Assembly: GCA_015055505.1 (NCBI GenBank)
Contig: SVIB01000004.1
Span: 1 to 64,000, forward strand
Direction of reading: 5' to 3'
DNA from: Clostridiales bacterium
GTDB taxonomy: Bacteria > Bacillota > Clostridia > Christensenellales > Borkfalkiaceae
Length of the DNA stretch: 64,000 bases
The notes under the pieces were generated by a model. It saw nothing but the letters and a program-made list of their open reading frames with translations. It was not told the DNA's origin and ran no database searches. The position numbers and the translations under genes were made by a program. Every line of letters begins with the position of its first letter. Positions within the stretch are counted from its first letter, which is position 1. Of this stretch, positions 23,077 to 63,669 are shown piece by piece.

Positions 23077-24261
23077 ATGGCAATAAAAACTGATTACTCT
23101 GAAGTTAAGTTTAAGGATAACGGAAAATTAAAATTGCTTATAATAGTGGGTACTCGCCCTGAAATTATAAGGCTTGCAGCGGTAATAAACAAATGCCGTC
23201 AGTATTTTGATTGCATTCTTGCGCACACGGGACAAAATTATGACTATAATTTAAACGGGGTATTCTTTAAAGATTTAAAACTTGCCGATCCCGAAGTGTA
23301 TATGGATGCCGTCGGCGACGATTTGGGCGCTACGGTTGGCAATATTATAAATTGCTCGTATAAACTTATGTCGCAAATTAAGCCTGACGCGTTACTTATT
23401 TTGGGCGATACTAACAGTTGTCTTTCGGCAATTCCTGCAAAAAGACTTCATATTCCTATTTTTCACATGGAGGCAGGTAACCGCTGTAAGGATGAGTGTT
23501 TGCCAGAAGAAACAAACCGCCGAATTGTAGATATTATTTCGGACGTCAATTTGGCGTATTCCGAGCATGCGCGCCGTTATCTTGCGGATTGCGGACTTCC
23601 TAAAGAGAGAACTTACGTAACTGGTTCGCCAATGGCAGAAGTTTTGCATAGTAATTTGCAAGAAATAAAGGATAGTGACGTTTTAACAAGGCTTAATTTG
23701 GAGCCTAAAAAATACATTTTACTTTCGGCGCACAGAGAAGAAAATATCGACACCGAAAAGAACTTTTTATCGCTTTTTACAGCAATAAATAAAATGGCGG
23801 AAAAATACGATATGCCTATTTTATATTCTTGTCATCCAAGAAGCAAAAAGAGATTAGAGGCAAGTGGATTTAAGCTTGATAGTAGAGTAATTTGTAACCA
23901 ACCGCTAGGGTTTCACGACTACAACAACCTTCAAATGAATGCTTTTTGTGTAGTATCCGATAGTGGAACTCTTCCCGAGGAAAGCAGCTTTTTTACAAGC
24001 GTAGGAAATCCTTTCCCTGCCGTATGTATTCGTACGTCGACTGAAAGACCTGAGGCTCTTGATAAAGCTTGCTTTGTGTTGGCGGGGATTGACGAAAAGA
24101 ATCTTTTGCAAGCGGTTGAAACTGCGGTTGAGCTTACAAAAGACGGAAGTCACGGTATTTCGGTGCCCGATTATGTAGAGGAAAACGTGTCTACAAAGGT
24201 TGTAAAAATAATTCAATCTTACGTTGGAATAGTTGACAAAATGGTCTGGAGAAAGTATTAA
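23077..24261 (+). CDS. capG: UDP-N-acetylglucosamine 2-epimerase family, CapG/WbjD type
   Basis: 'IIVGTRPEIIRLAAVINKC', 'HTGQNYDYNLNGVFF', 'MEAGNRCKDECLPEETNRRI'. Confidence 0.88.
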   Translation: MAIKTDYSEVKFKDNGKLKLLIIVGTRPEIIRLAAVINKCRQYFDCILAHTGQNYDYNLNGVFFKDLKLADPEVYMDAVGDDLGATVGNIINCSYKLMSQIKPDALLILGDTNSCLSAIPAKRLHIPIFHMEAGNRCKDECLPEETNRRIVDIISDVNLAYSEHARRYLADCGLPKERTYVTGSPMAEVLHSNLQEIKDSDVLTRLNLEPKKYILLSAHREENIDTEKNFLSLFTAINKMAEKYDMPILYSCHPRSKKRLEASGFKLDSRVICNQPLGFHDYNNLQMNAFCVVSDSGTLPEESSFFTSVGNPFPAVCIRTSTERPEALDKACFVLAGIDEKNLLQAVETAVELTKDGSHGISVPDYVEENVSTKVVKIIQSYVGIVDKMVWRKY

Positions 24262-24269
24262 AAGTAGGC

Positions 24270-24285
24270 CTATAAGTTGATTATT
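24270..24285 (+). repeat. repeat motif copy A: CTATAAGTTGATTATT
   Basis: Begins 8 nt after capG-like stop. Confidence 0.88.
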
Positions 24286-24319
24286 TGCAAAAACAAGTAA
24301 ATACACGGAGAAATATTAA

Positions 24320-28616: not shown

Positions 28617-29813
28617 ATGGATGTATGTAATATGACTAATACCGAAAGGTTTTTTATAGAATGCGTTAAAAAAGGAATAAACAATGAAAAGCTTGAAAAT
28701 AAAGAGCTTATTCCCAAAGACGTAGATTATAAACAACTTTATAAACTTTGCGCGTCGCATTCAATGAGTGTGATTGTTTGTAAGGCGATAGAAAACGTTA
28801 GACAAGAAATGCCTGAAGGGTTTTTAAACGCCATAGATAGGTCGGTGCAACGACACGTTATAAAAGACGTGCAAAGCGAGATTGATATAAAAACAGTGCT
28901 TGATGCTTTTGAGGATAACGGAATAAAACACATGCCTCTTAAAGGTTATCATCTTAAAAAGTTGTATCCGTCAACCGAAATGAGATATGCGTCCGACTGT
29001 GACGTTTTAATTGATATTGAGCAGTTAAAACAAGTGCGCGCTTTAGTTGATGAGTTAGGTCTTGCGACTAAACGCCATGACGAGCATCACGATATTGTAT
29101 ATTATCCTGAAACTAAAACGATTTTTGAACTTCATAAATGTATTTTCGTAGGTCCTTTAAAAAAATATTTTGGTATTGGTTTTGAAAGGGCGACTGTAAA
29201 AGACGGTTATAAATATTTTTATGAAATGAATAGAGAGATTTTTTACATTTCAATTCTTGCACATTCTGCTTATCATTTTGCTGAAAGCGCAGGTGTTGGT
29301 ATTAGGCATTTAACGGATATTTATCTTTATAGAAAAGCCTATGACTTAAATGAAGAATATTTAGACGAAGAACTTAAAAAGTGTGGGCTTTTACAGTTTA
29401 AAAACCAATTTGAAAAACTGTCGAATTTCTTTTTTAAGGACGAGCAAGCGGACGAGTTTACTTTAAAACTTGCGGATCATATAATTGAATCTACTTTGTT
29501 TTCAAATGAAGAAAAGAAAGCGGCGTCAGACGTCGCTTCTAAAAGTAATGATAGTAGTTGCGACGTTAAAAAGGCAAAAAAACGCACTTTTTGGAGTGCT
29601 CTTTTTCCACCTAAAGAAAATATGCAGTTTTCATATCCTATATTAAAAAAACATCTTTGGCTTTTACCGATATTTTATTTTGTTAGATGGTTTCACGTGT
29701 TGTTTACACGACCTAAAAATATTTCAAAATTAAAATCGGTAGGCAAAGTAAAAAGCGAAGAATTGGATGAGATGAAGTATATCCGTACAGGACTTGGAAT
29801 AAATGAACTTTAA
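28617..29813 (+). CDS. uncharacterised nucleotidyltransferase-fold protein (NTP_transf_5-like)
   Basis: 'HMPLKGYHLKKLYPSTEMRYASDCDVLIDI'. Confidence 0.78.
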   Translation: MDVCNMTNTERFFIECVKKGINNEKLENKELIPKDVDYKQLYKLCASHSMSVIVCKAIENVRQEMPEGFLNAIDRSVQRHVIKDVQSEIDIKTVLDAFEDNGIKHMPLKGYHLKKLYPSTEMRYASDCDVLIDIEQLKQVRALVDELGLATKRHDEHHDIVYYPETKTIFELHKCIFVGPLKKYFGIGFERATVKDGYKYFYEMNREIFYISILAHSAYHFAESAGVGIRHLTDIYLYRKAYDLNEEYLDEELKKCGLLQFKNQFEKLSNFFFKDEQADEFTLKLADHIIESTLFSNEEKKAASDVASKSNDSSCDVKKAKKRTFWSALFPPKENMQFSYPILKKHLWLLPIFYFVRWFHVLFTRPKNISKLKSVGKVKSEELDEMKYIRTGLGINEL

Positions 29814-29814
29814 T

Positions 29815-29852
29815 AAAAATGGGGCTATAAGTTGATTATTGCCCCATTTTTT
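29815..29852 (+). terminator. intrinsic terminator closing the EPS locus; loop is repeat motif copy B
   Basis: AAAAATGGGGC / GCCCCATTTTTT arms flanking TATAAGTTGATTATT. Confidence 0.88.
29825..29840 (+). repeat. repeat motif copy B: CTATAAGTTGATTATT
   Basis: Identical 16-mer to copy A; terminator loop. Confidence 0.9.
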
Positions 29853-29928
29853 GTTATTTAGGTTGTTAAATTTTTAATTAGAAGTATCCAAAAACAAATA
29901 ATTGTTTAAATTTAAAGCGTAATAAAAC

Positions 29929-29957
29929 TTGAAAAATGAATTATAATTTGATATAAT
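29929..29957 (+). promoter_or_regulatory. sigma-A-type promoter TTGAAA-N17-TATAAT
   Basis: Boxes read directly; ATG at 29964, 6 nt after the -10. Confidence 0.8.
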
Positions 29958-29963
29958 GAAAAT

Positions 29964-30473
29964 ATGGAACTAAAAGAGATTTTGTTTAACGATTTTGACG
30001 GTATTTATGCCGAGATGGAGAAAAATTTTATAGCAAGTGAAAGGCGAGATTATAGCGAGCAAAAAAATCTTTTAAATAATCCGTTGTTTAAAACATATCA
30101 TATCATAATTAAGGATAAAAAAGTTGGATTTATTACTGTTTGGCTATTAAAAAATTGCGCTTTTATTGAACATTTTGTGATATTTGAAGAAGAGAGAGGA
30201 AAGGGTTTAGGCGAGCAAACTTTAAATATGATAAAACAAATTTATAACAACGTTGTTTTAGAGTGTGAGCCTGAGACTTTGTCTGCTTTAGCAAATAGAC
30301 GTTTAAACTTTTATAAGCGAAACGGCTTTTATAATAACGGAATAGAATATTTTCAACCGCCGTACAGAAAAAACGGTTTAGCGGTTAGATTGGAGTTGAT
30401 GAGTTATCCAACTCCGCTTTTAGAAGTTGAAAAAGTCGTTGAAGAAATTTATCAAAAGGTATATAATAGATGA
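29964..30473 (+). CDS. GNAT family acetyltransferase
   Basis: 'FIEHFVIFEEERGKGLGEQTLNMI'. Confidence 0.82.
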   Translation: MELKEILFNDFDGIYAEMEKNFIASERRDYSEQKNLLNNPLFKTYHIIIKDKKVGFITVWLLKNCAFIEHFVIFEEERGKGLGEQTLNMIKQIYNNVVLECEPETLSALANRRLNFYKRNGFYNNGIEYFQPPYRKNGLAVRLELMSYPTPLLEVEKVVEEIYQKVYNR

Positions 30474-31315
30474 AAAGTTGTGACTTACATACTCACTCGG
30501 TTTTTTCCGATGGCACGTTTACGCCTGAAGAGTTGATAAAAGAGGCTCAAAACAAAGGGCTTTCGTCAATAGCCCTTACCGACCATAACAATATCGGCGG
30601 TATTGAACGATTTAAGGCTGAGGCAAAAAAAACTGACGTTGAGGCAGTAGCCGGAATAGAATTTTCCACAGATTACGGAGATACCGAACTTCATATTTTG
30701 GGGTTGTTTTTAAAAGAAGAATACTTTCCTCAAGTGAATGAACGCGCTAAAGAACTTATAGAAAGAAAGGACGAAAGCAACCGAATTTTGGTCGAGAGAT
30801 TAAACGGTGCCGGCTACGAAATTGATTACGACAGTATAAAAAAGTCGACCATGGGTACTGTAAATAGGGCGCATATAGGAGAAATTTTATACAAAAAGGG
30901 CTACGTATCTTCTATTAAGGAGTCGTTTACAACTTTATTGTCCAAAAACAGTCCTTATTATCACACGCCTAAGCGATTAGACGTTTTTGAAACGATTGAT
31001 TTTATCCGTTCGATAGGTTCGATTCCCATACTTGCACATCCGTTTTTAGACCTTGATGCGCCGAAATTGAGAATTTTCTTAGAAAAAGCAGTTAAATTTG
31101 GGCTTGTTGGAATGGAAACGGTGTATTCAACGTACGACAGCGGAACTACGCTTTTATGCAAAAAAATAGCAAAAGAATTTAATTTAAAGGAGAGTGGCGG
31201 TAGCGATTTTCACGGTGAGAGAAAACCGTATATTTCTCTCGGCATCGGAAAAGGTAATTTGTTTATACCCTACGAATTTTGTGAAAATTTACGCCCAAAA
31301 AAGATATGTATATAG
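30470..31315 (+). CDS. PHP-domain phosphoesterase
   Basis: 'CDLHTHSVFSDGTFTPEELI', 'IALTDHNN', 'GGSDFHGE'. Confidence 0.93.
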   Translation: MKSCDLHTHSVFSDGTFTPEELIKEAQNKGLSSIALTDHNNIGGIERFKAEAKKTDVEAVAGIEFSTDYGDTELHILGLFLKEEYFPQVNERAKELIERKDESNRILVERLNGAGYEIDYDSIKKSTMGTVNRAHIGEILYKKGYVSSIKESFTTLLSKNSPYYHTPKRLDVFETIDFIRSIGSIPILAHPFLDLDAPKLRIFLEKAVKFGLVGMETVYSTYDSGTTLLCKKIAKEFNLKESGGSDFHGERKPYISLGIGKGNLFIPYEFCENLRPKKICI

Positions 31316-32250
31316 GACTTGATATTGGTGGAACGAAATGTGCTGCCGTTGTTGGCACTGCGGATACCGAGGTTAATATTTTAGATAAAATAGTATTTCC
31401 AACAGCAGGGAAAACGCCTGAACAAATACTTACTTTGTTTTCAAATTTTATAGAAGAGCAACGTAAAAAATACACTGTTGACGGTATTGGTATTGCGTGC
31501 GGTGGACCTCTTGACAGTAAAAACGGCATAATAAAAAAACCCCCGTCACTTCCTCTTTGGGACGGAATAAAAATTGTTGAATATTTTGAAAATAAATTTG
31601 GAATAAAGACTTATCTTAAAAATGACGCAGACGCATGTGCCGTTGCCGAGTGGCTTTACGGAGCGGGAAAAGGCACTCAAAATATGATTTTCATAACATT
31701 TGGTACGGGTTTTGGCTCGGGACTTATTTTAAATGGAAAATTGTATTCAGGAACAAACGATAACGCAGGGGAAATAGGTCACGTAAGACTTAGAAAAAAC
31801 GGTCCCGTAGGCTATAATAAAGCAGGCTCTTGCGAGGGCTTTTGTAGCGGTAGCGGAATTAGACGTCTTGCGCTGTTAGAACTTGAAAAACTCAAAAAGA
31901 AGAATATCGTGCCTGAATTTGTTCAAAAAGTTGGGGGAGAAGATAATATTTCGGCTAAAACTATTGCTGAATTTGCAAGGCAAGGTGATAAATTTTGTCT
32001 TGGAATTTATAAAAAAAGCGGAAAAATGCTCGGCGAAACTCTCTCGATTTTAATAGATTTATTTAACCCTGAAAAAATCGTTATCGGCGGAGTATTTATG
32101 CGTAGCGGAGATTTAATGTATCCGTACGCTGAAAAAGTAATAAAAAGAGAAAGTCTTTGTTATGCGAGGGAAGTGTGTGAAATCGTCCCTGCAAAACTGC
32201 ATGAAAACATTGGCGACGTGTCGGCGCTTGCCGTAGCAAAAGGAATTTAA
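31306..32250 (+). CDS. ROK family sugar kinase (glucokinase-like)
   Basis: 'IGLDIGGTKCAAVVG', 'KNDADACAVAEWLYGAGKGTQNMIFITFGTGFGSGLI'. Confidence 0.92.
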   Translation: MYIGLDIGGTKCAAVVGTADTEVNILDKIVFPTAGKTPEQILTLFSNFIEEQRKKYTVDGIGIACGGPLDSKNGIIKKPPSLPLWDGIKIVEYFENKFGIKTYLKNDADACAVAEWLYGAGKGTQNMIFITFGTGFGSGLILNGKLYSGTNDNAGEIGHVRLRKNGPVGYNKAGSCEGFCSGSGIRRLALLELEKLKKKNIVPEFVQKVGGEDNISAKTIAEFARQGDKFCLGIYKKSGKMLGETLSILIDLFNPEKIVIGGVFMRSGDLMYPYAEKVIKRESLCYAREVCEIVPAKLHENIGDVSALAVAKGI

Positions 32251-32260
32251 GGAGATTGTT

Positions 32261-32899
32261 ATGAAAAATTCTACTAAGATGATATTTGATGAACTTATAT
32301 CAAAATATCCTGCACTTAACGTTTGTAAAAGCGGTATAATGGATGCTTTTAAACTGTTAAAAAAATCTTATGAAGATGGTGGAAAGGTTCTTACGTGCGG
32401 AAACGGTGGTAGCGCGGCGGATAGTGAGCATATAGTCGGCGAACTTATGAAGAACTTTAAAAAATGTAGAAAGGCTAACCAAAATTTACTAAACAACCTT
32501 CCAGAATGTGAAGAAAGTGAGAGATTAAAGGCTGTTTTAGAGGGTAATTTACCGGCAATATCTCTTACTTCGCATATATCTTTAACAACGGCATATTCAA
32601 ATGATAAAGAACCGTCAGCCGTGTTTGCACAACAACTTGCAGGGCTTGGAGAAAAGGGAGATACTTTGATTGCTATATCAACTTCGGGTAATTCATTAAA
32701 CTGTGTGTACGCTTGTTTGGTTGCAAAAGCGAAAGGGCTTAAAACCGTTGCTATGACGGGACAAAAAACGAGTAGACTAAGCGCTCTTGCTGACGTGACT
32801 ATTGCGGTACCCGAGATGGAAACTTATAAAATTCAAGAATTACACCTTCCAGTATATCACGCTTTATGCGCTATGCTTGAAGAAGAGTTTTTTGATTGA
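32261..32899 (+). CDS. SIS-domain sugar-phosphate isomerase (GmhA-like)
   Basis: 'LTCGNGGSAADSEHIVGEL', 'GDTLIAISTSGNS'. Confidence 0.88.
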   Translation: MKNSTKMIFDELISKYPALNVCKSGIMDAFKLLKKSYEDGGKVLTCGNGGSAADSEHIVGELMKNFKKCRKANQNLLNNLPECEESERLKAVLEGNLPAISLTSHISLTTAYSNDKEPSAVFAQQLAGLGEKGDTLIAISTSGNSLNCVYACLVAKAKGLKTVAMTGQKTSRLSALADVTIAVPEMETYKIQELHLPVYHALCAMLEEEFFD

Positions 32900-32907
32900 T
32901 AAATTGT

Positions 32908-32942
32908 AAAACCGCGCGATAATCGACTTATAGCGTGGTTTT
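32908..32942 (+). terminator. intrinsic terminator with repeat motif copy C in its loop
   Basis: AAAACCGCGC / GCGTGGTTTT (one G-U) around GATAATCGACTTATA. Confidence 0.8.
32918..32933 (-). repeat. repeat motif copy C: CTATAAGTCGATTATC (minus strand)
   Basis: 15/16 to copy E; terminator loop. Confidence 0.88.
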
Positions 32943-32961
32943 ATTATAAATGGGAGATAAA

Positions 32962-33636
32962 ATGTTTCATATTTTAGTTGTAGATGACGATAAGAATATT
33001 CGCTACGTTATGAAAGAGGTTTTGAAAACCGCTCAATATGAAGTGTTTACGGCGAAAAATGGGGAAGAGGCTTTCAATATATTAGAAAGAGAACATATTG
33101 ACCTTGTAATTGTAGATATTATGATGCCAAAGATGGACGGGTATGAGTTTACGAAAGAGTTGCGCGTGTTTGACAGTGAATTGCCCGTTTTGATGGTTTC
33201 AGCAAAGCAACTTCCCGAAGATAGAAAAAAGGGATTTGTCGTTGGTATTGACGACTATATGTCAAAGCCTATTGATGCGGAAGAACTACTTCTTCACGTA
33301 AAGGCACTTTTAAGACGGTCTAAAATTATAAACGAAAGGAAAATTACGGTTGGCTCGGTTACTCTCGATTATGACAGTTACACTGTTGAGAGGAATGGAG
33401 AGGTACACGAACTTCCACAAAAAGAATTTCTTTTGCTCTATAAATTACTATCATTCCCTAACAAGATTTTTACAAGAATCCAACTTATGGATGAAATTTG
33501 GGGAGTAGAGTGTGAAACGGGTAGCGAAACTGTAACCGTACACGTAGGTAGGTTAAGGAAAAGATTTGAGCATTGGGACGATTTTGAAATAGAGGCGATA
33601 AGAGGCTTAGGCTATAAGGCGGTAAAGAAAAAATGA
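32962..33636 (+). CDS. OmpR-family response regulator
   Basis: 'ILVVDDDKNIRYVMKEVL', 'LVIVDIMMPKMDGYEF', winged-helix 'VTVHVGRLRKRFE'. Confidence 0.95.
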   Translation: MFHILVVDDDKNIRYVMKEVLKTAQYEVFTAKNGEEAFNILEREHIDLVIVDIMMPKMDGYEFTKELRVFDSELPVLMVSAKQLPEDRKKGFVVGIDDYMSKPIDAEELLLHVKALLRRSKIINERKITVGSVTLDYDSYTVERNGEVHELPQKEFLLLYKLLSFPNKIFTRIQLMDEIWGVECETGSETVTVHVGRLRKRFEHWDDFEIEAIRGLGYKAVKKK

Positions 33637-34847: not shown

Positions 34848-36509
34848 TTGGAAAATAATTCTAATCAAAAAATAATTGACGGCGACTTGTTTGAAAAAAT
34901 TGTTATAAACGGCGCGCTTAATTTAAAAGCCAATTTAAAAACGGTCAATGACTTAAACGTATTTCCTATTCCTGACGGAGATACGGGCGACAATATGTTT
35001 ATGACCATAAAAGGTGGGCTTGGCGACCTTAAAGAAGTAAAAGAAAACTCCGTATGTAAAAAAGCCGAGGCTTTAGCAAACGGCATGCTTTTAAACGCGA
35101 GGGGAAATTCAGGGGTTATATTATCTCAACTGTTTGCAGGAATTGCCGAAGGTTTGAAAGACTGCGATAGGGCTACCGTTTCGCAATTTGGCTCGGCGTT
35201 AAAGTGCGGAGTGTGTAAAGCGTATAAGTCCGTGTCTAAGCCAGTCGAGGGAACTATACTGACGGTTGCAAGAGAAGCAACAGATTATGCTTGCGAAAAA
35301 TGTGGCGATAACAGTACTATAGGCGGGTTTTTGGTGGATTACATAACCGAAATGAAATGTTCTTTAGACCGCACGCCCGACCTTTTAGAAGCACTAAAAG
35401 AAGCAGGAGTAATTGATAGCGGTGGAGCAGGACTCGTTTATATTGCCGAAGGTATGAAAGGGGCTGTTGAAGGCAGAGAGGTTGGAAACGCTGAGTTTGA
35501 AGAATCTAACAAAAGTAGTATTGACTTTTCAAAGTTTAATGAAAACAGCGTAATGAAATACGGCTACTGCACCGAACTTTTATTGCAACTTCAAACGGTA
35601 AAAACCGACGTTAATAATTTTGATATAACCCCGCTTATCTCTTATCTTGAAAGTATAGGAGATTCAGTAGTTGCGTTTTTGACGGGAACCGTAGTAAAAA
35701 TACACGTGCATACTTTAACTCCTTATAAAGTGTTAGAATACTGTCAAAATTACGGTGAATTTTTAACTGTAAAAATTGAGAATATGACCCTTCAGCATAA
35801 CGGGGTTGAAAATGAAAAAAAGCAAGTTAAAAAGATAAGACCGAGAAGAAAATTCGGGCTTGTTACGGTTGCTACGGGTAAAGGTCTTATAGATACTTTT
35901 AAGGAAATCGGCGCTGATGAGGTAATTGACGGCGGTCAAGGTAAAAACCCCTCTATAGGTCGATTTATCGAGGCTTTTGATGACGTTAATGCTGACAATA
36001 TCTTCGTTTTACCTAATAATAGCAACATAATAATGGCGGCAAAACAGGCAGGCGAAAAGTACGGTAAGTCTAACGTTGTTGTAATTGAAACGAAAGACGT
36101 AGGTCAAGCGTATTCAGTCCTTTCGATGCTTGATTATTCAGCCGACGACGCGGAAAAAATTGCAAATCAAATGAATAGCGATATGCAAGGAGTTGTAACT
36201 GGCTTAGTTACCGTTTCGGTGCGTGACGCAAATATCGACGGCGTTGATATAAAAGAGGGCAATTACATTGGTTTTAAGGGAAAAACAATGCTTGCCTCTT
36301 GCGAAAGTAAAATAGATACGCTAATAGCGCTTACTGAAAAACTTGACGCTAAAGACAAAGTTTTTATGATTGTTTCCTACGGTGAAGGAGTAAGCGAAGT
36401 TGAGAAAACTGAGGTTTCTATAACGATTAAATCAAAATATCCAAACGTCGAGTTTTATGAAATTGACGGAGGACAGGAAGTTTACGATTTTATAGTAATT
36501 TTAGAATAA
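34848..36509 (+). CDS. fakA: DAK2/YloV family (FakA-type fatty acid kinase catalytic subunit)
   Basis: 'LNVFPIPDGDTGDNMFMTIKGG', 'LLNARGNSGVILSQLFAG', 'IDSGGAGLV'; TTG start with AAGGAG 9 nt upstream. Confidence 0.9.
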   Translation: MENNSNQKIIDGDLFEKIVINGALNLKANLKTVNDLNVFPIPDGDTGDNMFMTIKGGLGDLKEVKENSVCKKAEALANGMLLNARGNSGVILSQLFAGIAEGLKDCDRATVSQFGSALKCGVCKAYKSVSKPVEGTILTVAREATDYACEKCGDNSTIGGFLVDYITEMKCSLDRTPDLLEALKEAGVIDSGGAGLVYIAEGMKGAVEGREVGNAEFEESNKSSIDFSKFNENSVMKYGYCTELLLQLQTVKTDVNNFDITPLISYLESIGDSVVAFLTGTVVKIHVHTLTPYKVLEYCQNYGEFLTVKIENMTLQHNGVENEKKQVKKIRPRRKFGLVTVATGKGLIDTFKEIGADEVIDGGQGKNPSIGRFIEAFDDVNADNIFVLPNNSNIIMAAKQAGEKYGKSNVVVIETKDVGQAYSVLSMLDYSADDAEKIANQMNSDMQGVVTGLVTVSVRDANIDGVDIKEGNYIGFKGKTMLASCESKIDTLIALTEKLDAKDKVFMIVSYGEGVSEVEKTEVSITIKSKYPNVEFYEIDGGQEVYDFIVILE

Positions 36510-38368: not shown

Positions 38369-38379
38369 TTAAATTTGCC

Positions 38380-38395
38380 GATTTTCAACTTATAG
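38380..38395 (-). repeat. repeat motif copy D: CTATAAGTTGAAAATC (minus strand), diverged
   Basis: 8 nt past the PPi-PFK stop. Confidence 0.7.
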
Positions 38396-38403
38396 GCGGA
38401 CTT

Positions 38404-39633
38404 TTACAGTTTAAACTTAATCATTTTAAGTTTGGCGTAAGATGGAAGTCCGTTTTCAATCCGTCTTTCGGGCTCGCCTTGAATTAAGGGGAGAGCGTAA
38501 TCTATAAACTCTTGAGTAAGTCCCGTACCGTCTTTGTTTATCCATTCAAGAGGAACGGTCTTTTCGGCGTTAGCAATAGTGGAGAGGTCTTTGCCGACGA
38601 AGTCAAGCGCGTATTCTCCGTCACGGCGAACGTAAGCAATCATTTTATCCGTTTCACCGTTTACTGCGTGTATAACGGATTGTCTGCCAACCTCGAAAGC
38701 CTCTTCAACGTCAGTTTTAGAGGCGACGTGAGATGCGCAACGTTGTAAAATATTAAGTTCTATTGCTTTACATTTATAACCGATAGATTTAACTGCCGAT
38801 TTAAGCACACCGCAAACACCGCCTAACGAAGAGTGTCCAAATACGTCCGTTGCGCTTGCGTCTTCTCCAACGTATTTACCTTCGGCGTTTTTAATTCCTT
38901 CGGAAACGGCGACTATGCAAACGCGCTTTTCGTCCACAACCTTTTTTACGTCGTTTTTAAACTTCTCTAATGAGAAAGGGATTTCAGGAAGATAAATAAG
39001 GTCTGCACCGCAACCGGTAAGTGATGCAAGAGCGGAAGATGCTGTAAGCCAACCTGCATTTCTTCCCATAATTTCAAGGACTATAACAAGTGGGCTTTCA
39101 TAAATAACGGCGTCTTTATAAACTTCGGTAATCGTCGTTGCAACGTATTTTGCCGCACTGCCGTAACCGGGGCAGTGGTCTGTTCCAACCAAGTCGTTAT
39201 CTATCGTTTTGGGGATACCTATAACGTTGACGGGATACCCTTCTTTTTCCATAAAACGTGAAATTTTATCGCAAGTATCCATACTGTCGTTTCCGCCGTT
39301 ATAGAAGAAATATTTTACGTCGTACTTTTTAAATATTTCAAGAATTTTTTTATAGTCGGTGTCGTCAACGTTAAAATCTTTAAGTTTATATCTTACCGAC
39401 CCGAATTCCGAGGCTGGAGTGTTTTTAAGCGCGTAAAGTTCGCTTAAATCTTCCTTGCCGATATCGACGAAATCTTCGGTTAAAACGCCTTTAATTCCGT
39501 GAAGAGCGCACAAAACGTCGGTTATCAAATCTTGGTTTAAAGCCTCGATAAGTCCGCCTGCAATACTTGAATTTATGACTGCGGTAGGACCGCCCGATTG
39601 AGCAAAAACCGCTCTACCTTTTAAATTTTTCAT
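38404..39633 (-). CDS. 6-phosphofructokinase, PPi-dependent-type
   Basis: 'FFYNGGNDSMDTCDKI', 'GIPKTIDNDLVGTDHCPGYGSAAK' (Lys in PKTIDND). Confidence 0.88.
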   Translation of the reverse strand: MKNLKGRAVFAQSGGPTAVINSSIAGGLIEALNQDLITDVLCALHGIKGVLTEDFVDIGKEDLSELYALKNTPASEFGSVRYKLKDFNVDDTDYKKILEIFKKYDVKYFFYNGGNDSMDTCDKISRFMEKEGYPVNVIGIPKTIDNDLVGTDHCPGYGSAAKYVATTITEVYKDAVIYESPLVIVLEIMGRNAGWLTASSALASLTGCGADLIYLPEIPFSLEKFKNDVKKVVDEKRVCIVAVSEGIKNAEGKYVGEDASATDVFGHSSLGGVCGVLKSAVKSIGYKCKAIELNILQRCASHVASKTDVEEAFEVGRQSVIHAVNGETDKMIAYVRRDGEYALDFVGKDLSTIANAEKTVPLEWINKDGTGLTQEFIDYALPLIQGEPERRIENGLPSYAKLKMIKFKL

Positions 39634-43600: not shown

Positions 43601-44218
43601 AACGTAATGCACGTCGTTGGTAGCAACGAGTTTTATGCCGTATTTTTTAGCGTAAATCCTAAGATATTTATTAACTTCAATTTGTTCGGGAAGGTCGTGA
43701 TTTTGAATTTCAAGATAAAAATCCTCGCCGAAAAGGTCCTTAAACCATTTAACGAGCCTCTCAGCCTCTTCAAAATTTCTATTTAAAATGGCTTGGGGAA
43801 TATCTCCTGCAATACAAGCCGAAAGACAAACTAATCCCTCGTGATGCTCAGCAAGGGTTTTAAGGTCGATTCTCGGTTTATAATAGTAACCGTCCCTAAA
43901 GGCAATAGCGTTTAAAAGAGAAATGTTTTTATATCCCGTTTCGTTTTTGCACAGTAAAACGAGGTGGTTTAATTTGGTCTTCCCGCTCTTTACGGTCAAG
44001 TCGTCGCATACGTAAAATTCAGTACCGATTATGGCTTTAATGTCGTTTTTTTCGCATGCGTCGAAAAAAGCCACCGCGCCGTACATATTGCCGTGGTCGG
44101 TAATTGCAATAGCGGGCATACCGAGTTCTTTTGCTCTTTTCGTTACGTTTGCAATTCTCGCCGCGCCGTCTAATATGCTATATTCAGTATGAACGTGTAA
44201 GTGAACGAAATTTCCCAT
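40640..44218 (-). CDS. dnaE: DNA polymerase III alpha subunit
   Basis: 'FVHLHVHTEYSILDGAARI', 'GPGRGSGAGSIVAYLIGITNIDPL', 'APDFDVDFEDCRRQEVIEYVKRKYG'. Confidence 0.97.
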   Translation of the reverse strand: MGNFVHLHVHTEYSILDGAARIANVTKRAKELGMPAIAITDHGNMYGAVAFFDACEKNDIKAIIGTEFYVCDDLTVKSGKTKLNHLVLLCKNETGYKNISLLNAIAFRDGYYYKPRIDLKTLAEHHEGLVCLSACIAGDIPQAILNRNFEEAERLVKWFKDLFGEDFYLEIQNHDLPEQIEVNKYLRIYAKKYGIKLVATNDVHYVSKEDAMSQDVLMCVQMGADYDDPKRLKFSNDEFYLKTQEEMAELFPEDPEALETTLEIADKCNFSFVYGHYMFPHYYPETGEEPIVYLRGLINKGIQKKYGAETPEIRERIESELAVIEKQGFVEYFLIVWDYINAARNMGISVGPGRGSGAGSIVAYLIGITNIDPLKYDLYFERFLNPERVSAPDFDVDFEDCRRQEVIEYVKRKYGENRVCKIVTFGTMAAKNAIKDVGRVLKLPYSETDRVTKTIPNKLVRKNAKGDEFDLKRPNILMKVFGQYHPKEGAKDYGVDFSVPELMQMYNEDSEIRRVADIAMKLEDSPRQASTHACGVIIGADILDQHMPLGRNGEDITSQYTGVELEHLGFLKMDFLGLRNLSDIKMAIDYIKENHGIEIDFDKSTYDDPKVYELLSTGNTKAIFQVESAGFQKFLRELRPTCLEDIVAAVSLYRPGPMDSIPKFVKCKHNPDLVKFDHPLLEPILKQTYGCIVYQEQVMKIVQSLAGYTLGQADNVRRMMGKKQVEAMVKEEVIFIHGRGELVDKHGKVSTAIDGCLKRGVPEDVAKKIWGEMKDFAKYAFNKSHAAAYSLVTYQTAYLKTYFEAEFLTAVLNNRITNIDEIKNYLSYAKEEGIEVLPPDINKSIGHFSVKNGKIRYGLAAIKGIGLTAIDSIVEERNKNGDYTSFENFISRCESKVLNKRLVENLIYAGAFDQFGKHRTQLIGISEDLIDRVAIIAKQKESNQMSLFGDFIKEDTTFTVTYPNLKEYDSKTKLSLEKSVTGLYLTGHPLDGFKDKFKDCTFTTQMLTNYEEDEDGTITYTDVKNDQYVTLGGIITNADKIATKSGSFMSFVNIEDVYGAIECIFFPKKYEKYKDLLQAEKIVKIKGRLQLREDKVTVMADVCEEVNETPTESAVETQKAGRECLGIILNKETEKSKDELIDILSTYPGDIIVYFKIDGKNYRMTQTVRNCRGLFNELLSIVDEDDIKFFKA

Positions 44219-44237
44219 TATAACCTCAAAAGTTAGT

Positions 44238-44253
44238 CTATAAGTCGATTATT
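44238..44253 (+). repeat. repeat motif copy E: CTATAAGTCGATTATT
   Basis: 6 nt past the hemW stop, antisense to hemW. Confidence 0.88.
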
Positions 44254-44259
44254 CGACGT

Positions 44260-45369
44260 TTAATCCATAAAATAAATAATTATAGTGTTTTGCACGTAGA
44301 TATATTCGGGTTTTATTCTAATATCAGTATCCGTAATATCTAAGTATTTTTTTACCGCTTTAATTTTATCGGCGTACTTTTCTTTAAAGTCAACGCCAAA
44401 GCGGTTTTTAAAATCTTCAAAAGTAAAGCCTTCGTCTTTTCTTAGAGAAAGCATAATAAATTCAAATTCCCTTTCGTCGCCCTCTATATTTTCGGTAAAA
44501 ATTTCCGCAACCTTGCCTCTTAATATGCAAGCGGTGTATTCGTCTATTTTTTCGGTATTTGTAAAACGCCTTTCGCCTATAAACGAAGACGCGGAAACCC
44601 CAAAACCTATGTATTCGCCTCTATTCCAATAGTTGAGATTGTGGCGCGATTTATAGCCGTCCTTTGCGAAGTTGGACACTTCGTAGCGGTAAAATCCGTT
44701 TTCTTCCAAATATGATTTTGCAAAATCGTAAAGTTCAGCCGTTTCGTCCTCAGCGGGTAGGTCGCCGTTTAAATATTTACCGTACATCGGCGTACCCTCT
44801 TCGGCTTTTAACGCGTATGCGGAAATATGTTTTGCTCCGCCCTTTATTGCAAGGTCAATAGTGTTTTTTACGTCGTTTGCAGTTTGATTTTCAAGTCCGA
44901 GCATTACGTCAACGCTTAAATTCTCTCCTTTTAATAGGTCAACGGCAATTAAAAAATCCTCGGTTGTGTGTATACGGTTAAGACTTCTAAGCATTTTATC
45001 GTCAGCCGATTGAAGTCCTACGCTAAAACGGTTAATCCCCGCGCGTTTATACGCCTTTACTTTTTCGGCGGAGAGAGTGCCGGGGTTTACTTCTAAGGTA
45101 ATTTCAACGTCGTCGGTAAGTTTATAATAATTTTTAATTTGTCTAAGCGCCCCGACAATATATTTTTCCTCGACAAAAGAGGGAGTACCCCCACCGAAAT
45201 ATACGGTATCGAAAAGGTAATCCTTTAAACTTTCCGCCCTTGCCTTAATTTCTTTATAAAGGCAGGCAAAATATAAATCAGCCTTAGAAATTTCCCTTGG
45301 GTAGGAAGCAAAATCACAGTAAGTGCATTTGCTCTTGCAAAAGGGAATATGTACGTAAATTCCACTCAT
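44260..45369 (-). CDS. hemW: radical SAM HemW-type protein
   Basis: 'GIYVHIPFCKSKCTYCDFAS', 'YFGGGTPSF', 'NRFSVGLQSADDKMLRSLNRIH'. Confidence 0.93.
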   Translation of the reverse strand: MSGIYVHIPFCKSKCTYCDFASYPREISKADLYFACLYKEIKARAESLKDYLFDTVYFGGGTPSFVEEKYIVGALRQIKNYYKLTDDVEITLEVNPGTLSAEKVKAYKRAGINRFSVGLQSADDKMLRSLNRIHTTEDFLIAVDLLKGENLSVDVMLGLENQTANDVKNTIDLAIKGGAKHISAYALKAEEGTPMYGKYLNGDLPAEDETAELYDFAKSYLEENGFYRYEVSNFAKDGYKSRHNLNYWNRGEYIGFGVSASSFIGERRFTNTEKIDEYTACILRGKVAEIFTENIEGDEREFEFIMLSLRKDEGFTFEDFKNRFGVDFKEKYADKIKAVKKYLDITDTDIRIKPEYIYVQNTIIIYFMD

Positions 45370-47495: not shown

Positions 47496-48230
47496 ATGAA
47501 AAACAGAATTAGCGATAATCATTGGCTTATAAACAGAGCGTCGGCGCACCGCGGATTTCACGGAAACGGAATTCCCGAAAACAGTAAAGGCGCGTTTTTA
47601 AAGGCTATTGAATTAAATTATCCTATAGAAACGGATATTCAACTTACTAAAGATTTAGTTCCCGTTTGTTTTCACGACGATAACTTAAAGAGAATTACGG
47701 GCGTTGACAGTTTAGTATGGGATAAGACGCTTGAGGAGATTAAAAGTTTAAGTATTTGCGAAACTGAAGAGAAAATCTTGACTTTTGAAGAATTTTTGGC
47801 TTTAGTTGACGGAAAAGTTCCGTTACTTATCGAAATAAAATCTCAAAGGGAAAATAAAGCGGTCGTACAAAAGACCTTAGACCTTTTAAAGAATTATAAA
47901 GGCGAGTTCGTTATACAGTCTTTTGATCCAAGAGTGATGGGAGAAGTAAGAAAATTAAATCCAAGCATAATAAGAGGGCAATTAATGTGCAAAGAGCGTC
48001 ACGAAAACCTCTCGCCTTTAACTGACAAACTTCTTTCAAACGGCTTTTTAAACTTCTTGTCAAAACCCGATTTTATCAATATGAATCAAAAATTTCTTCC
48101 AATTCAAAAGCGCATTACGAGAGGAAAAAGGATTTTATGTTGGACGGTAAAAACCCAAGAAGAGGAAGAGAGGGCGCTTAACTTCGTAGACAGTTACGTC
48201 TTTGAAAATATCACTCCAAAAGTTAAATAA
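47496..48230 (+). CDS. glycerophosphodiester phosphodiesterase
   Basis: 'SAHRGFHGNGIPENSKGAFLKAIELNYPIETDIQLTKDLVPVCFHD'. Confidence 0.93.
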   Translation: MKNRISDNHWLINRASAHRGFHGNGIPENSKGAFLKAIELNYPIETDIQLTKDLVPVCFHDDNLKRITGVDSLVWDKTLEEIKSLSICETEEKILTFEEFLALVDGKVPLLIEIKSQRENKAVVQKTLDLLKNYKGEFVIQSFDPRVMGEVRKLNPSIIRGQLMCKERHENLSPLTDKLLSNGFLNFLSKPDFINMNQKFLPIQKRITRGKRILCWTVKTQEEEERALNFVDSYVFENITPKVK

Positions 48231-48241
48231 TCAACCTATAG
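48226..48241 (-). repeat. repeat motif copy F: CTATAGGTTGATTATT (minus strand)
   Basis: Overlaps the GDPD stop codon; extended match AAAAACCCCT upstream. Confidence 0.85.
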
Positions 48242-48259
48242 AGGGGTTTTTGTGTAAAA

Positions 48260-50692
48260 ATGATAAAAAAACAGTATACCGTTAGCGGAATGACCTGCTC
48301 GGCATGTTCGAGTAGGGTTGAAAGGACGGCTAAAAAAACCGACGGCGTTACTTCTTGTTCGGTAAACCTTATTTCGGGAATTATGAAAGTCGAAATGGAA
48401 AGGGACGTAAGCCAAGAATTAATGCAAGCGATAAAAGAGCAAGGGTATGGAATAAAGGAAGGGGTGGAGAGGAAAAAGGTTTCCGCAAGGGAACAAAATT
48501 TAAAGAAACGCCTTTTAATTTCTATACCGCTCGTGATTTTACTGATGTATATTGCAATGGGCAGTATGGTAGGACTTCCAATTCCTCAGTTTTTAGTAAA
48601 GCCTTTCCCGTTTGCACTCTCTCAAGCGATAATAGCCCTATTAGTCGTAGCGGTCAACTTTTCGTATTATACGGTTGGATTTAAAAATTTAATAAAGTTA
48701 AAACCTAATATGGACTCTCTCGTTGCGCTCGGCTCGTCGGTCTCGTTTTTGTACGGTGTGTTTGCAGTTGTTATGATAGCCGTAGGAAAAGACGTTCACA
48801 TTTACGCACACAACCTATATTTCGAGGGTGCGGCAATGATAGTTTCGCTTATTACTTTGGGTAAGTTTTTAGAAGAGAAAAGTAAAAACAAAACCATGAG
48901 CGCAGTTGAAAAATTAATAGGCTTAACCCCTGAAACGGCAGTCGTTGAAAGGGACGGAAAAGAGCAAGAAATTGCGATTAATGAACTTATAGAGGGAGAT
49001 ATCTTTATATTAAAGGACGGTTTTTCTATTCCTGCCGACGGCGAAATTATCGAGGGAGAAGGCTGGGCGGACGAGTCGGTCATTACGGGCGAAAGCGTCC
49101 CCGTTTATAAAGAAAAGGGTAGTAAGGCAATTTGCGGAACGTCCTTTTCAGGCGGGTTTGCAAAAGCGGTTGCAAAAAGCGTAGGTGAAGATACTACGGT
49201 ATATAAAATCGTGAAATTGGTAGAGGATGCAAATTCTACTAAAGTTCCAATAGCAGGCGTTGCAGATAAGGTTGCGGGCATTTTCGTTCCTACGGTAATT
49301 GCTATTTCACTTATAGTTTTAGCCGTTTGGCTAATAATTACGAACGATTTTGCGTATTCCTTTAATTTTGCGGTAAGCGTGTTGGTCGTATCGTGTCCGT
49401 GCGCGTTAGGCTTAGCAACACCTGCGGCGCTGATGGCTGGTACGGGCAAAGCCGCTGAAAACGGAATTTTAATAAAAAGCGGTGAAGCGCTACAAAAGTC
49501 GGCAAGCGTTGATACCGTCGTATTAGATAAAACGGGAACGGTCACTTTTGGGAAACCGCAAATTGAAAGCGTTAATAATATTGGAATAGAACGTGCGGAG
49601 TTTTTGAAAATTTGCGCCACTTTAGAAGATAAGAGTTCGCATATATTGGGAAAGCCTGTCGTAGAACTTGCAAATGACGAAAAGGTCGGCAGATATGAAA
49701 TTCAAGAGTTTGAAACCTTGCGAGGAAAGGGTGTTTCGGGACTTATAAACGGCGAAAAGTATTTCCTTGGCAATTTATCTCTCATAAAAGAAAATACTGA
49801 AAAGGAAGTCTTTTACGAGGCGAAAACGCAAGTTGAAAACCAAACGTCTAAAACCTTGCTAATATTGGCAACAAAAACTAAAACGTACGGCTATATATCG
49901 ATTAACGACCAAATTAAGCCGTCAAGCGTGACTGCGATAGACCTTTTAAAGAAGATGAAAATAAAAACGGTTATGCTAACTGGGGATAACGATTCTTCGG
50001 CGAAAGCGGTTGCGGAAAAACTTCAAATTGATTATAAAGCGGAAGTTTTACCCGAGGATAAACACCGTGAGATTGAAAGATTTAACGCCGAAGGGAAAAA
50101 GACTATGATGGTCGGCGACGGAGTAAACGACGCCCCCGCACTTACAAGCGCAAACGTAGGCGTTGCAATAGGCGCAGGTACGGATATAGCGATAGAAAGC
50201 GCGGACGTCGTGCTTATAAAAAACGAGTTGACGGATGCGGTAAACTGTATTAAAATAGGTAAGAAGGTAATGAAAAATATTAAGGAAAATCTCTTTTGGG
50301 CGTTTTTCTATAATATATTATTAATACCGATAGCAAGCGGAGTTTTGTCGGGTGTAGGAATACTTTTAAATCCAATGATAGCCTCGGCTGCAATGAGTTT
50401 ATCAAGCCTATTCGTAGTAGGAAACGCATTAAGACTAAGATTTATAAAATTTAACGAAAAAGGAGAAGAGCAAATGTTTTTTAAGAAAAAAGAAGGCAAA
50501 ACGGCTGTAATTGAAGGAATGATGTGTCAACACTGTCAAAAAAGGGTTGAAGGCGTATTTGAAAAGTTAGGAATAAAAGTAGAAATCAACTTAAAGAAAA
50601 AGACTGCTACTTTCCCAGTTACCGACGTAACTGACGAACAAATAAAAAGCGCAATCGAAGCAGAGGGTTATACCGTCGTATCAATAGAATAA
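48260..50692 (+). CDS. copA: Cu(+) P1B-type ATPase with N- and C-terminal HMA domains
   Basis: 'GMTCSACSSRVERT', 'VSCPCALGLATPAAL', 'DKTGT', C-terminal 'GMMCQHCQKRVEG'. Confidence 0.95.
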   Translation: MIKKQYTVSGMTCSACSSRVERTAKKTDGVTSCSVNLISGIMKVEMERDVSQELMQAIKEQGYGIKEGVERKKVSAREQNLKKRLLISIPLVILLMYIAMGSMVGLPIPQFLVKPFPFALSQAIIALLVVAVNFSYYTVGFKNLIKLKPNMDSLVALGSSVSFLYGVFAVVMIAVGKDVHIYAHNLYFEGAAMIVSLITLGKFLEEKSKNKTMSAVEKLIGLTPETAVVERDGKEQEIAINELIEGDIFILKDGFSIPADGEIIEGEGWADESVITGESVPVYKEKGSKAICGTSFSGGFAKAVAKSVGEDTTVYKIVKLVEDANSTKVPIAGVADKVAGIFVPTVIAISLIVLAVWLIITNDFAYSFNFAVSVLVVSCPCALGLATPAALMAGTGKAAENGILIKSGEALQKSASVDTVVLDKTGTVTFGKPQIESVNNIGIERAEFLKICATLEDKSSHILGKPVVELANDEKVGRYEIQEFETLRGKGVSGLINGEKYFLGNLSLIKENTEKEVFYEAKTQVENQTSKTLLILATKTKTYGYISINDQIKPSSVTAIDLLKKMKIKTVMLTGDNDSSAKAVAEKLQIDYKAEVLPEDKHREIERFNAEGKKTMMVGDGVNDAPALTSANVGVAIGAGTDIAIESADVVLIKNELTDAVNCIKIGKKVMKNIKENLFWAFFYNILLIPIASGVLSGVGILLNPMIASAAMSLSSLFVVGNALRLRFIKFNEKGEEQMFFKKKEGKTAVIEGMMCQHCQKRVEGVFEKLGIKVEINLKKKTATFPVTDVTDEQIKSAIEAEGYTVVSIE

Positions 50693-57197: not shown

Positions 57198-57775
57198 AAA
57201 AACTGTTAGATTTAGCCCTATCTTATTTTAAGGTAGGGCTGTTCACTTTCGGCGGAGGTCTTGCAATGATTTCCATAATCGAAAGGGAATACGTTCAAAA
57301 ACGGAAATGGATAGAAAAGGACGAATTTGAAAACGTAGTTGCAATAGCAGAATCAACACCGGGACCGGTCGCTATAAATTGCGCTACTTATATAGGTTAT
57401 AAAGTCGGTAAGGTTTTAGGTGCGATTATAGCAACAGTCGCAGTATGCTTGCCGTCGTTTTTTATAATTTACGTAATTTCGCTCTTTTTTGACGCCTTTA
57501 TGTCCCTTAAAATTGTGCAGTATGCTTTTGAGGGAATTCAAATTGCCGTAATATTTTTAATCTTTTCAGCAGGGTTTAAATTTTTCAAAAATATGAAGAA
57601 AACTCCGTTTAATTTAACGGTCTTTTTCGCAACGTTTGGATGTATGTTGGCGTTTGCATTCTTTGGCGTAACGTTTTCTTCGATTTTTTATATTTTAATA
57701 GGCGGAGTTTTAGGTCTTACCGTTTATCTTTTAGGACTTTTACTAAAAAAGTCTAAAAAGGAGGGAAAGCAATGA
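57194..57775 (+). CDS. chromate transporter family, half-size subunit 1
   Basis: 'FTFGGGLAMISIIEREYV', 'IAESTPGPVAINCATYIGYKVG'. Confidence 0.9.
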   Translation: MKKLLDLALSYFKVGLFTFGGGLAMISIIEREYVQKRKWIEKDEFENVVAIAESTPGPVAINCATYIGYKVGKVLGAIIATVAVCLPSFFIIYVISLFFDAFMSLKIVQYAFEGIQIAVIFLIFSAGFKFFKNMKKTPFNLTVFFATFGCMLAFAFFGVTFSSIFYILIGGVLGLTVYLLGLLLKKSKKEGKQ

Positions 57776-58353
57776 GTATTTATTTAATGCTTTTTCTTAC
57801 CTTTTTAGAGATAGGCGCGGTTTCTTTTGGCGGTGGATACGGAATGATATCGCTAATGCGAGAGAAAACGGTAGGATATAATTGGCTTACAGACGGTGAG
57901 TTTTTAAATATGATTGCAGTTTCTGAGTCAACCCCCGGTCCTATTGCGGTAAATATTGCAACTTTCGTAGGTGCAAGCCAAGGCGGAATATGGGGCGCTC
58001 TTTGCGCAACTTTGGGAATTATTTTACCGTCGTTTATTATAATTTTAGTTATTGCCACTCTTATTGGTAATCTTATGAAATTTGCAGGAGTTCAATCGGT
58101 TGTAAACGGTATGAAACCTGCCGTAACGGGTATTATAATAGCAACGGCAATTACTATGGTTGTAAAGGCTATAATTTCAGTAGAAACAGTCGGTCAACCT
58201 ATCGACTTTTCATTAAGCCGTTCAATTATTTTCTCTCTTGTCGCCTTAGCCTTTTTCGGTTATAAAACGGTATTTAAAAAAGAAATTTCGCCAATTTTAC
58301 TTATTGTTATTTCGGCGTGTATCGGTATAGTGATTTGTCCGTTTATATCTTAA
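57772..58353 (+). CDS. chromate transporter family, half-size subunit 2
   Basis: 'VSFGGGYGMISLMREKTV', 'VSESTPGPIAVNIATFVG'. Confidence 0.9.
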   Translation: MSIYLMLFLTFLEIGAVSFGGGYGMISLMREKTVGYNWLTDGEFLNMIAVSESTPGPIAVNIATFVGASQGGIWGALCATLGIILPSFIIILVIATLIGNLMKFAGVQSVVNGMKPAVTGIIIATAITMVVKAIISVETVGQPIDFSLSRSIIFSLVALAFFGYKTVFKKEISPILLIVISACIGIVICPFIS

Positions 58354-58367
58354 TAATCGCCTTATAG
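58352..58367 (-). repeat. repeat motif copy G: CTATAAGGCGATTATT (minus strand)
   Basis: Overlaps the stop codon of chromate transporter subunit 2. Confidence 0.82.
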
Positions 58368-58482
58368 CCCTACTTATTTACGATAATGATAAAATTTCAC
58401 ACTAAGATAACAAAAAGGATTTTTCCTTGAATGCGCTAAACATTTAGAGAGTATTGTCCGTACCAATAGAGTAAAATAAAAA

Positions 58483-63413: not shown

Positions 63414-63465
63414 GAAAGAGGGAAACGAACTGTTTTTGGATTCCCTCTAAATCGCAAAAACCCCT

Positions 63466-63482
63466 CTATAGGTCGGTTAATT
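63466..63482 (+). repeat. repeat motif copy H: CTATAGGTCGGTTAATT
   Basis: Preceded by CAAAAACCCCT as in copy F; inside an AAATCGCAAAA / TTTTGCGGTTT stem. Confidence 0.75.
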
Positions 63483-63669
63483 GATAAATTTTCATTTCTT
63501 TTGCGGTTTAACTAACACTGAATTAACCCGTTTAAAGAATCGCTGGAGCAATAGGTATAAGGGTAGCGCGGTAGTTGTTTCGTTAACGATTTTATGCCTT
63601 TAATGATGCCGATATATTTCTTTATAAGTGTTTAAAAGTGTAAGGACTTATTTTTTATCCGTTAAAAAC

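Follow-up and report, generated by a model that had tools for sequence, protein, structure and literature searches.

A repeated DNA element in uncultured Clostridia as a candidate IHF-type bend site with phased A/T flanks

How supercoil domains come to be positioned in bacteria has long been an open question, and proteins of the HU family are generally taken to be non-specific. Published IHF sites span 35 bp, have proline kinks 9 bp apart and carry an A-tract on the left, and in simulation IHF pins the apices of plectonemes (PMC9519438). Periods above 10.5 bp have been interpreted as plectonemic (PMC4132750). For DNA gyrase, the E. coli motif is symmetric, extends over 130 bp and has G/C phased at 10.75 bp, with BIME-2 elements located in intergenic DNA (PMC6379681), and the type IIA determinants -4G/+8C are conserved across enzymes (PMC12324340). 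In the genomes analyzed here, a conserved site present in hundreds of copies, a phasing signal spanning 200 bp and a 90-residue HU paralogue that is a candidate for site-specific binding coincide.

The window (the whole stretch of 64,000 nucleotides that was analyzed) contains the following sites of the element TATAAGTYGATTATT:

Positions 24260-24294, plus strand: site with core 24271-24285, 10 bp past the stop of a UDP-GlcNAc 2-epimerase gene; no stem; matrix score 36.2.
Positions 29815-29849, plus strand: copy B, with core 29826-29840, A-tract 29815-29818 and an A/T block beyond, 12 bp past the stop of a nucleotidyltransferase-like gene (28617-29813); also a strong terminator hairpin, with the strongest stem; matrix score 36.9.
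Positions 32909-32943, minus strand: copy C, with core 32918-32932, between an SIS-domain gene (32261-32899) and a response-regulator gene (32950-33636); also a hairpin; matrix score 32.3.
Positions 35943-35977, plus strand: intragenic site with core 35954-35968 (TATAGGTCGATTTAT), within a FakA/DAK2-family gene (34848-36509); matrix score 24.6.
Positions 38371-38405, minus strand: site with core 38380-38394 (TATAAGTTGAAAATC), with convergent genes on either side; matrix score 26.7.
Positions 44228-44262, plus strand: site with core 44239-44253, flanked by two minus-strand genes (stop at 44260, start at 44218); matrix score 36.4.
Positions 48217-48251, minus strand: site with core 48226-48240, overlapping the stop of a GDPD-family gene (47496-48230); matrix score 31.2.
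Positions 48968-49002, minus strand: weaker intragenic site with core 48977-48991; matrix score 18.9.
Positions 58343-58377, minus strand: site with core 58352-58366, at the stop of a chromate-transporter-family gene (57772-58353); matrix score 31.3.
Positions 63456-63490, plus strand: intergenic site with core 63467-63481 (TATAGGTCGGTTAAT); matrix score 24.6.

Copies B and C were the starting point, having been presented in the preliminary description as two terminators with unrelated stems around a common 15-nt loop that is inverted in C; both positions and folds bear this out. In copy B, the exact 15-mer lies on the plus strand between the arms AAAAATGGGGC and GCCCCATTTTTT and folds as RNA into a stable hairpin (-18.0 kcal/mol, z -4.4). 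Copy C holds the 15-mer on the minus strand (TATAAGTCGATTATC, one mismatch relative to TATAAGTYGATTATT) between the complementary arms AAAACCGCGC and GCGTGGTTTT, with folding energies of -17.3 kcal/mol (z -4.8) on the plus strand and -13.4 kcal/mol (z -3.9) on the minus strand. Both loops contain an inner 4-bp ATAA/TTAT mini-stem, so they are not merely open 15-nt loops. As evidence, the two hairpins are real and stable but unrepresentative: when the first 113 copies are ranked by stem strength, B is first and C second, which means that the first reading had met the extremes. Most of the further window copies (24271, 44239, 48226, 58352, 38380 and 63467, and the intragenic 35954 and 48977) lack such a hairpin, and folding of the first four did not yield one of the B/C type. 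No Rfam families were found within the window.

The element is abundant well beyond the window. In the 1.6-Mb, 58-contig genome to which the window belongs, the element matches 143 times when up to one mismatch is allowed, as opposed to a single match for the reversed pattern. A 27-column matrix at a score of at least 20 located 139 sites in 613 kb of this genome, and 43, 49 and 38 sites in G026 (from a sister genus), G006 and G002, respectively, with none in any of the reversed sequences. This corresponds to about one site per 4.4 kb, or an extrapolated ~360 per genome, all densities being derived from sampled stretches of the genomes. Named matches were all to metagenome-assembled genomes (MAGs) of uncultured Clostridia, mostly from the ruminant gut; the scattered single matches on viral contigs among the matches listed are probably background. 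A literature search for the core sequence returned no paper. By genus, g1 (the genus of the window's genome), g13 and g16 have the motif in abundance; g15 also has it and g8 has sparse copies, but none was found in g17 or in any other genus sampled. A search for dialects in the form of enriched dyads gave none in g8 (280 kb) or g17 (178 kb). Such dialects do occur in G026, which is enriched in the variants TATAGGTCGATTA and TATAGCGCGATTA. Within the window's own genus, G003, G005, G007 and G012 have very few or degenerate copies.

Conservation extends over a zone of ~35 bp, from -11 to +23, that reads AWAA, RY, NN, G, Y, C and TATAAGTYGATTA, followed by an A/T block at positions 20-23. The core TATAAGTYGATTA agrees in its major form with the E. 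coli IHF consensus WATCARNNNNTTR at eight of nine positions, the single fixed mismatch being a change of C to A; the expected number of matches is 7.63 of 9, a value equalled by a fraction of only 0.0006-0.001 of randomized motifs. The A-tract AWAA lies 7 nt upstream of the core, compared with 8 nt at the consensus-matching site 27764 of lambda attP, and TpA steps recur 9 bp apart, at position 2 in 98% of copies and at position 11 in 89%. As with E. coli IHF sites, either orientation is used. Unlike them, the sites described here number in the hundreds, are highly conserved and are located within genes or past stop codons, not at promoters or att sites, and they are embedded in phased A/T flanks. 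To our knowledge, 200 bp of phased flanks have not been reported for known IHF sites. The sister-genus variants TATAGGTCGATTA and TATAGCGCGATTA fit the IHF consensus less well, which counts against the comparison.

The phasing of A/T in the flanks was determined over 265 sites, with a period of 11.52±0.06 bp that is the same in each of four genomes, symmetric about position 6-6.5 and detectable to about ±100 bp. It is also found in 81 deeply intragenic copies, where it exceeds jitter nulls out to 106 bp, and control positions chosen by A-tracts or by a similar arrangement of A/T gave no comparable wave. In the outer blocks of the flanks, AA/TT steps are enriched and TA is depleted. The phased A/T "structural code" of cyanobacteria (11-11.6 bp) has the same period and the same proposed role at plectoneme tips; unlike that code, the phase observed here is locked to a discrete, sequence-specific core.

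With genes taken as simple open reading frames, which makes the counts of context and frame approximate, 105 of 261 classified copies (~40%) are intragenic, 99 lie in tandem gaps, 46 in convergent gaps and 11 in divergent gaps. In tandem gaps, the center of the site falls a median of 20 bp past the stop codon, and intergenic copies in general lie ~10-30 bp past stops. Spacing between sites is a little more even than random (CV 0.91). Orientation is balanced, whether it is scored against the direction of local genes (137:128) or against the upstream gene (51 same, 48 anti), and a search for replication polarity of the KOPS or Chi kind found none (137:128). The complementarity of the flanks in 113 copies is near chance when compared with re-paired or shuffled flanks (z 0.8). 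Among the 265 copies, strong stems are found in 16 intergenic ones versus 8.1 expected (p 0.004) and in 3 intragenic ones versus 4.0 expected, so that genes contribute no excess. Near-chance stems, the large intragenic share and unbiased orientation indicate that the site is read as DNA, as the preliminary description had considered at least as likely as recognition of the RNA, and they do not sustain its view of the element as primarily a terminator loop. A DNA-level architectural site is well supported.

The positions of the copies are in part inherited. Gene-end sites common to G006 and G002 number 11 of 15 (2.4 expected, P 2e-9), and those common to G000 (the window's genome) and G002 number 8 of 17 (3.5 expected, P 0.002), with no excess between more distant pairs of genomes. 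Sixty-nine of 92 intragenic copies occupy one preferred reading frame. Selection on the element itself, as proposed earlier, agrees with our results; its alternative, insertion of the element between pre-existing arms, does not, because copies lie in real genes, keep a preferred frame and are partly retained between species. Recent duplication alone does not explain the conserved loops either, since the copies have unrelated flanks and recur at orthologous positions. The gap of copy C holds the element at the same place in five related species, in either orientation. Comparison of the orthologous gaps in L253-L257 with window positions 32899-32950 shows that species differ in the orientation of the element; a strong stem, where present, could allow such flipping by exchange between its two arms.

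Judging from sequence, we lean cautiously towards the element being an IHF-type bend site for a divergent HU subfamily, probably fixing plectoneme tips; binder, bend and plectoneme role are what we infer from the features above. On this reading, the two TpA steps, separated by 9 bp, would be kinked by an HU/IHF (DNABII) dimer that also clamps the A/T blocks on both sides, and the DNA would make a U-turn within a footprint of ~35 bp. Through the outer A/T tracts, whose 11.5-bp phasing reaches about ±100 bp, the arms would continue as a right-handed plectoneme, and each site would fix one supercoil tip; by analogy with published phased A/T tracts and with IHF at tips, such arms might hold the plectoneme at the site. 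Positions just past stop codons would do the least harm to promoters and proteins and would be the meeting place of transcription-driven supercoils. A more doubtful extension, which we offer tentatively, is that ~360 plectoneme tips may be encoded chromosome-wide, with a clade-specific HU paralogue that is site-specific, arms phased at 11.5 bp, branches at gene ends and dialects among genera.

The likeliest predicted binder is the HU subfamily with the signature EYVHISGFATF, whose representative, encoded at G000:C17:14030-14299, is the only HU/IHF (DNABII) protein found in G000; unlike in E. coli, an alpha/beta pair of IHF was not found there, only this single HU-like protein. The subfamily is monophyletic, with a support of 0.999 against other HU proteins, and was detected in every sampled genome of g1, g8, g13, g15, g16 and g17. 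It is absent from the 12 other sampled genera, all of them motif-free; their HU proteins, where they have any, are of other types. Given its presence in g17, where no motif was found in 178 kb, and in g8, with sparse copies, the association looks necessary without being sufficient; nor are the co-occurrences phylogenetically independent, as the genera are mutually related. The subfamily is also kept in the motif-poor species G005 and G012 of the same genus, which suggests that in such species the sites were lost or drifted.

That same distribution in two genera without a clear motif leaves some room for a different clade-specific architectural or nucleoid protein, other than HU, gyrase, Lrp or RemA, to which the DNA-level data would apply equally. 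We consider this unlikely, as it requires an additional protein although the consensus and A-tract fit DNABII, as would the predicted length of the footprint and spacing of the kinks.

The main rival to the IHF-type reading is DNA gyrase, in which case the sites would be strong gyrase sites comparable to the Mu SGS or E. coli BIME-2, with the core as G-segment, the flanks wrapping the two GyrA C-terminal domains and gyrase acting at gene ends. Several features speak for it: in published work, gyrase sites are marked by extended G/C phasing, the pattern here is likewise helically phased and symmetric about position 6-6.5 around a core, sites lie at gene ends, a period above 10.5 bp is compatible with right-handed wrapping, and the right arm of the Mu SGS carries A/T blocks ~11.5 bp apart. 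GyrA with a GyrA-box-like motif also occurs in the window's own genus, and a comparison of GyrA lengths and tails yielded nothing decisive. However, the period is 11.5 rather than 10.75 bp, phasing to ±100 bp exceeds the 130-bp motif, and the core is strictly conserved and also occurs outside intergenic DNA. The type IIA cleavage determinants -4G/+8C are absent when the dyad is placed at 6.5 (both positions are A), with only -2A/+6T fitting, and in a scan with a template of the site, the annotated Mu gyrase site does not stand out and ranks far down. Moreover, gyrase is universal, whereas the motif is limited to a few genera. Taken together, we judge a gyrase site to be quite unlikely.

A third possibility, a DNA uptake signal for natural transformation, appears very improbable. 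The element shares with the USS/DUS of Pasteurellaceae and Neisseriaceae its copy-number class in the hundreds, its occurrence in both orientations, in and outside genes, with preferred frames for the intragenic copies, its mildly even spacing, its genus dialects and its occasional use in terminators, including an inverted pair. ComEC is encoded in G000 and in most of the genus, but it is just as present in motif-free genera, and no T2SSE/PilB-type ATPase for pilus assembly exceeds the family cut-off in G000 or in most motif-rich genomes, G011 being a motif-bearing exception. Phased flanks spanning 200 bp are also unlike USS/DUS.

The frame of the preliminary description, intrinsic terminators whose conserved RNA loop is recognized by a protein, receives the least credence from us. 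Copies B and C are good hairpins, sites do follow stop codons, and intergenic copies show the modest excess of strong stems given above; nevertheless, ~90% of intergenic copies have no strong stem, many copies lie within genes, orientation preference is absent and the position of the U-tract is only A/T. As a main role, the terminator loop was rejected on the near-chance stem complementarity of most copies. Under the IHF-type reading, a few percent of the intergenic copies would in addition have become intrinsic terminators, a co-option that is probable. At L155:9485-9508, a single long palindromic terminator (AAAAGACGGGCTATAAGTCGGTTAATCGACTTATAGCCCGTCTTTT) is made up of two copies that overlap in inverted orientation, an arrangement resembling the inverted DUS pairs of Neisseria.

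Lrp and RemA also wrap DNA, and sites for either were rejected, as PF01037 (Lrp/AsnC) was not found in g1 and g13 and PF04025 (RemA) was not found among 61 genomes of the family; a mobile repeat (MITE/REP) was rejected because flanks are unrelated save for the A/T phase and intragenic copies keep frame. Lrp/AsnC proteins, missing in g1 and g13, occur in most of the family's other genera. Orthologues without the site were gap-free in 9 cases and gapped in 8, the gapped ones being distant.

Other repeated sequences were observed in the same material. The G000 sample contains the overrepresented 11-mers TGGCGGTAGCA (20 copies) and ACCAACAAGGT (15 copies), for which the site does not account. Genus g17 (G082, stretches L471-L475) shows enrichment of another repeat, with k-mers such as AGTGCCCTTTT, TTTTTCTCACA and AAAACGCACAA.
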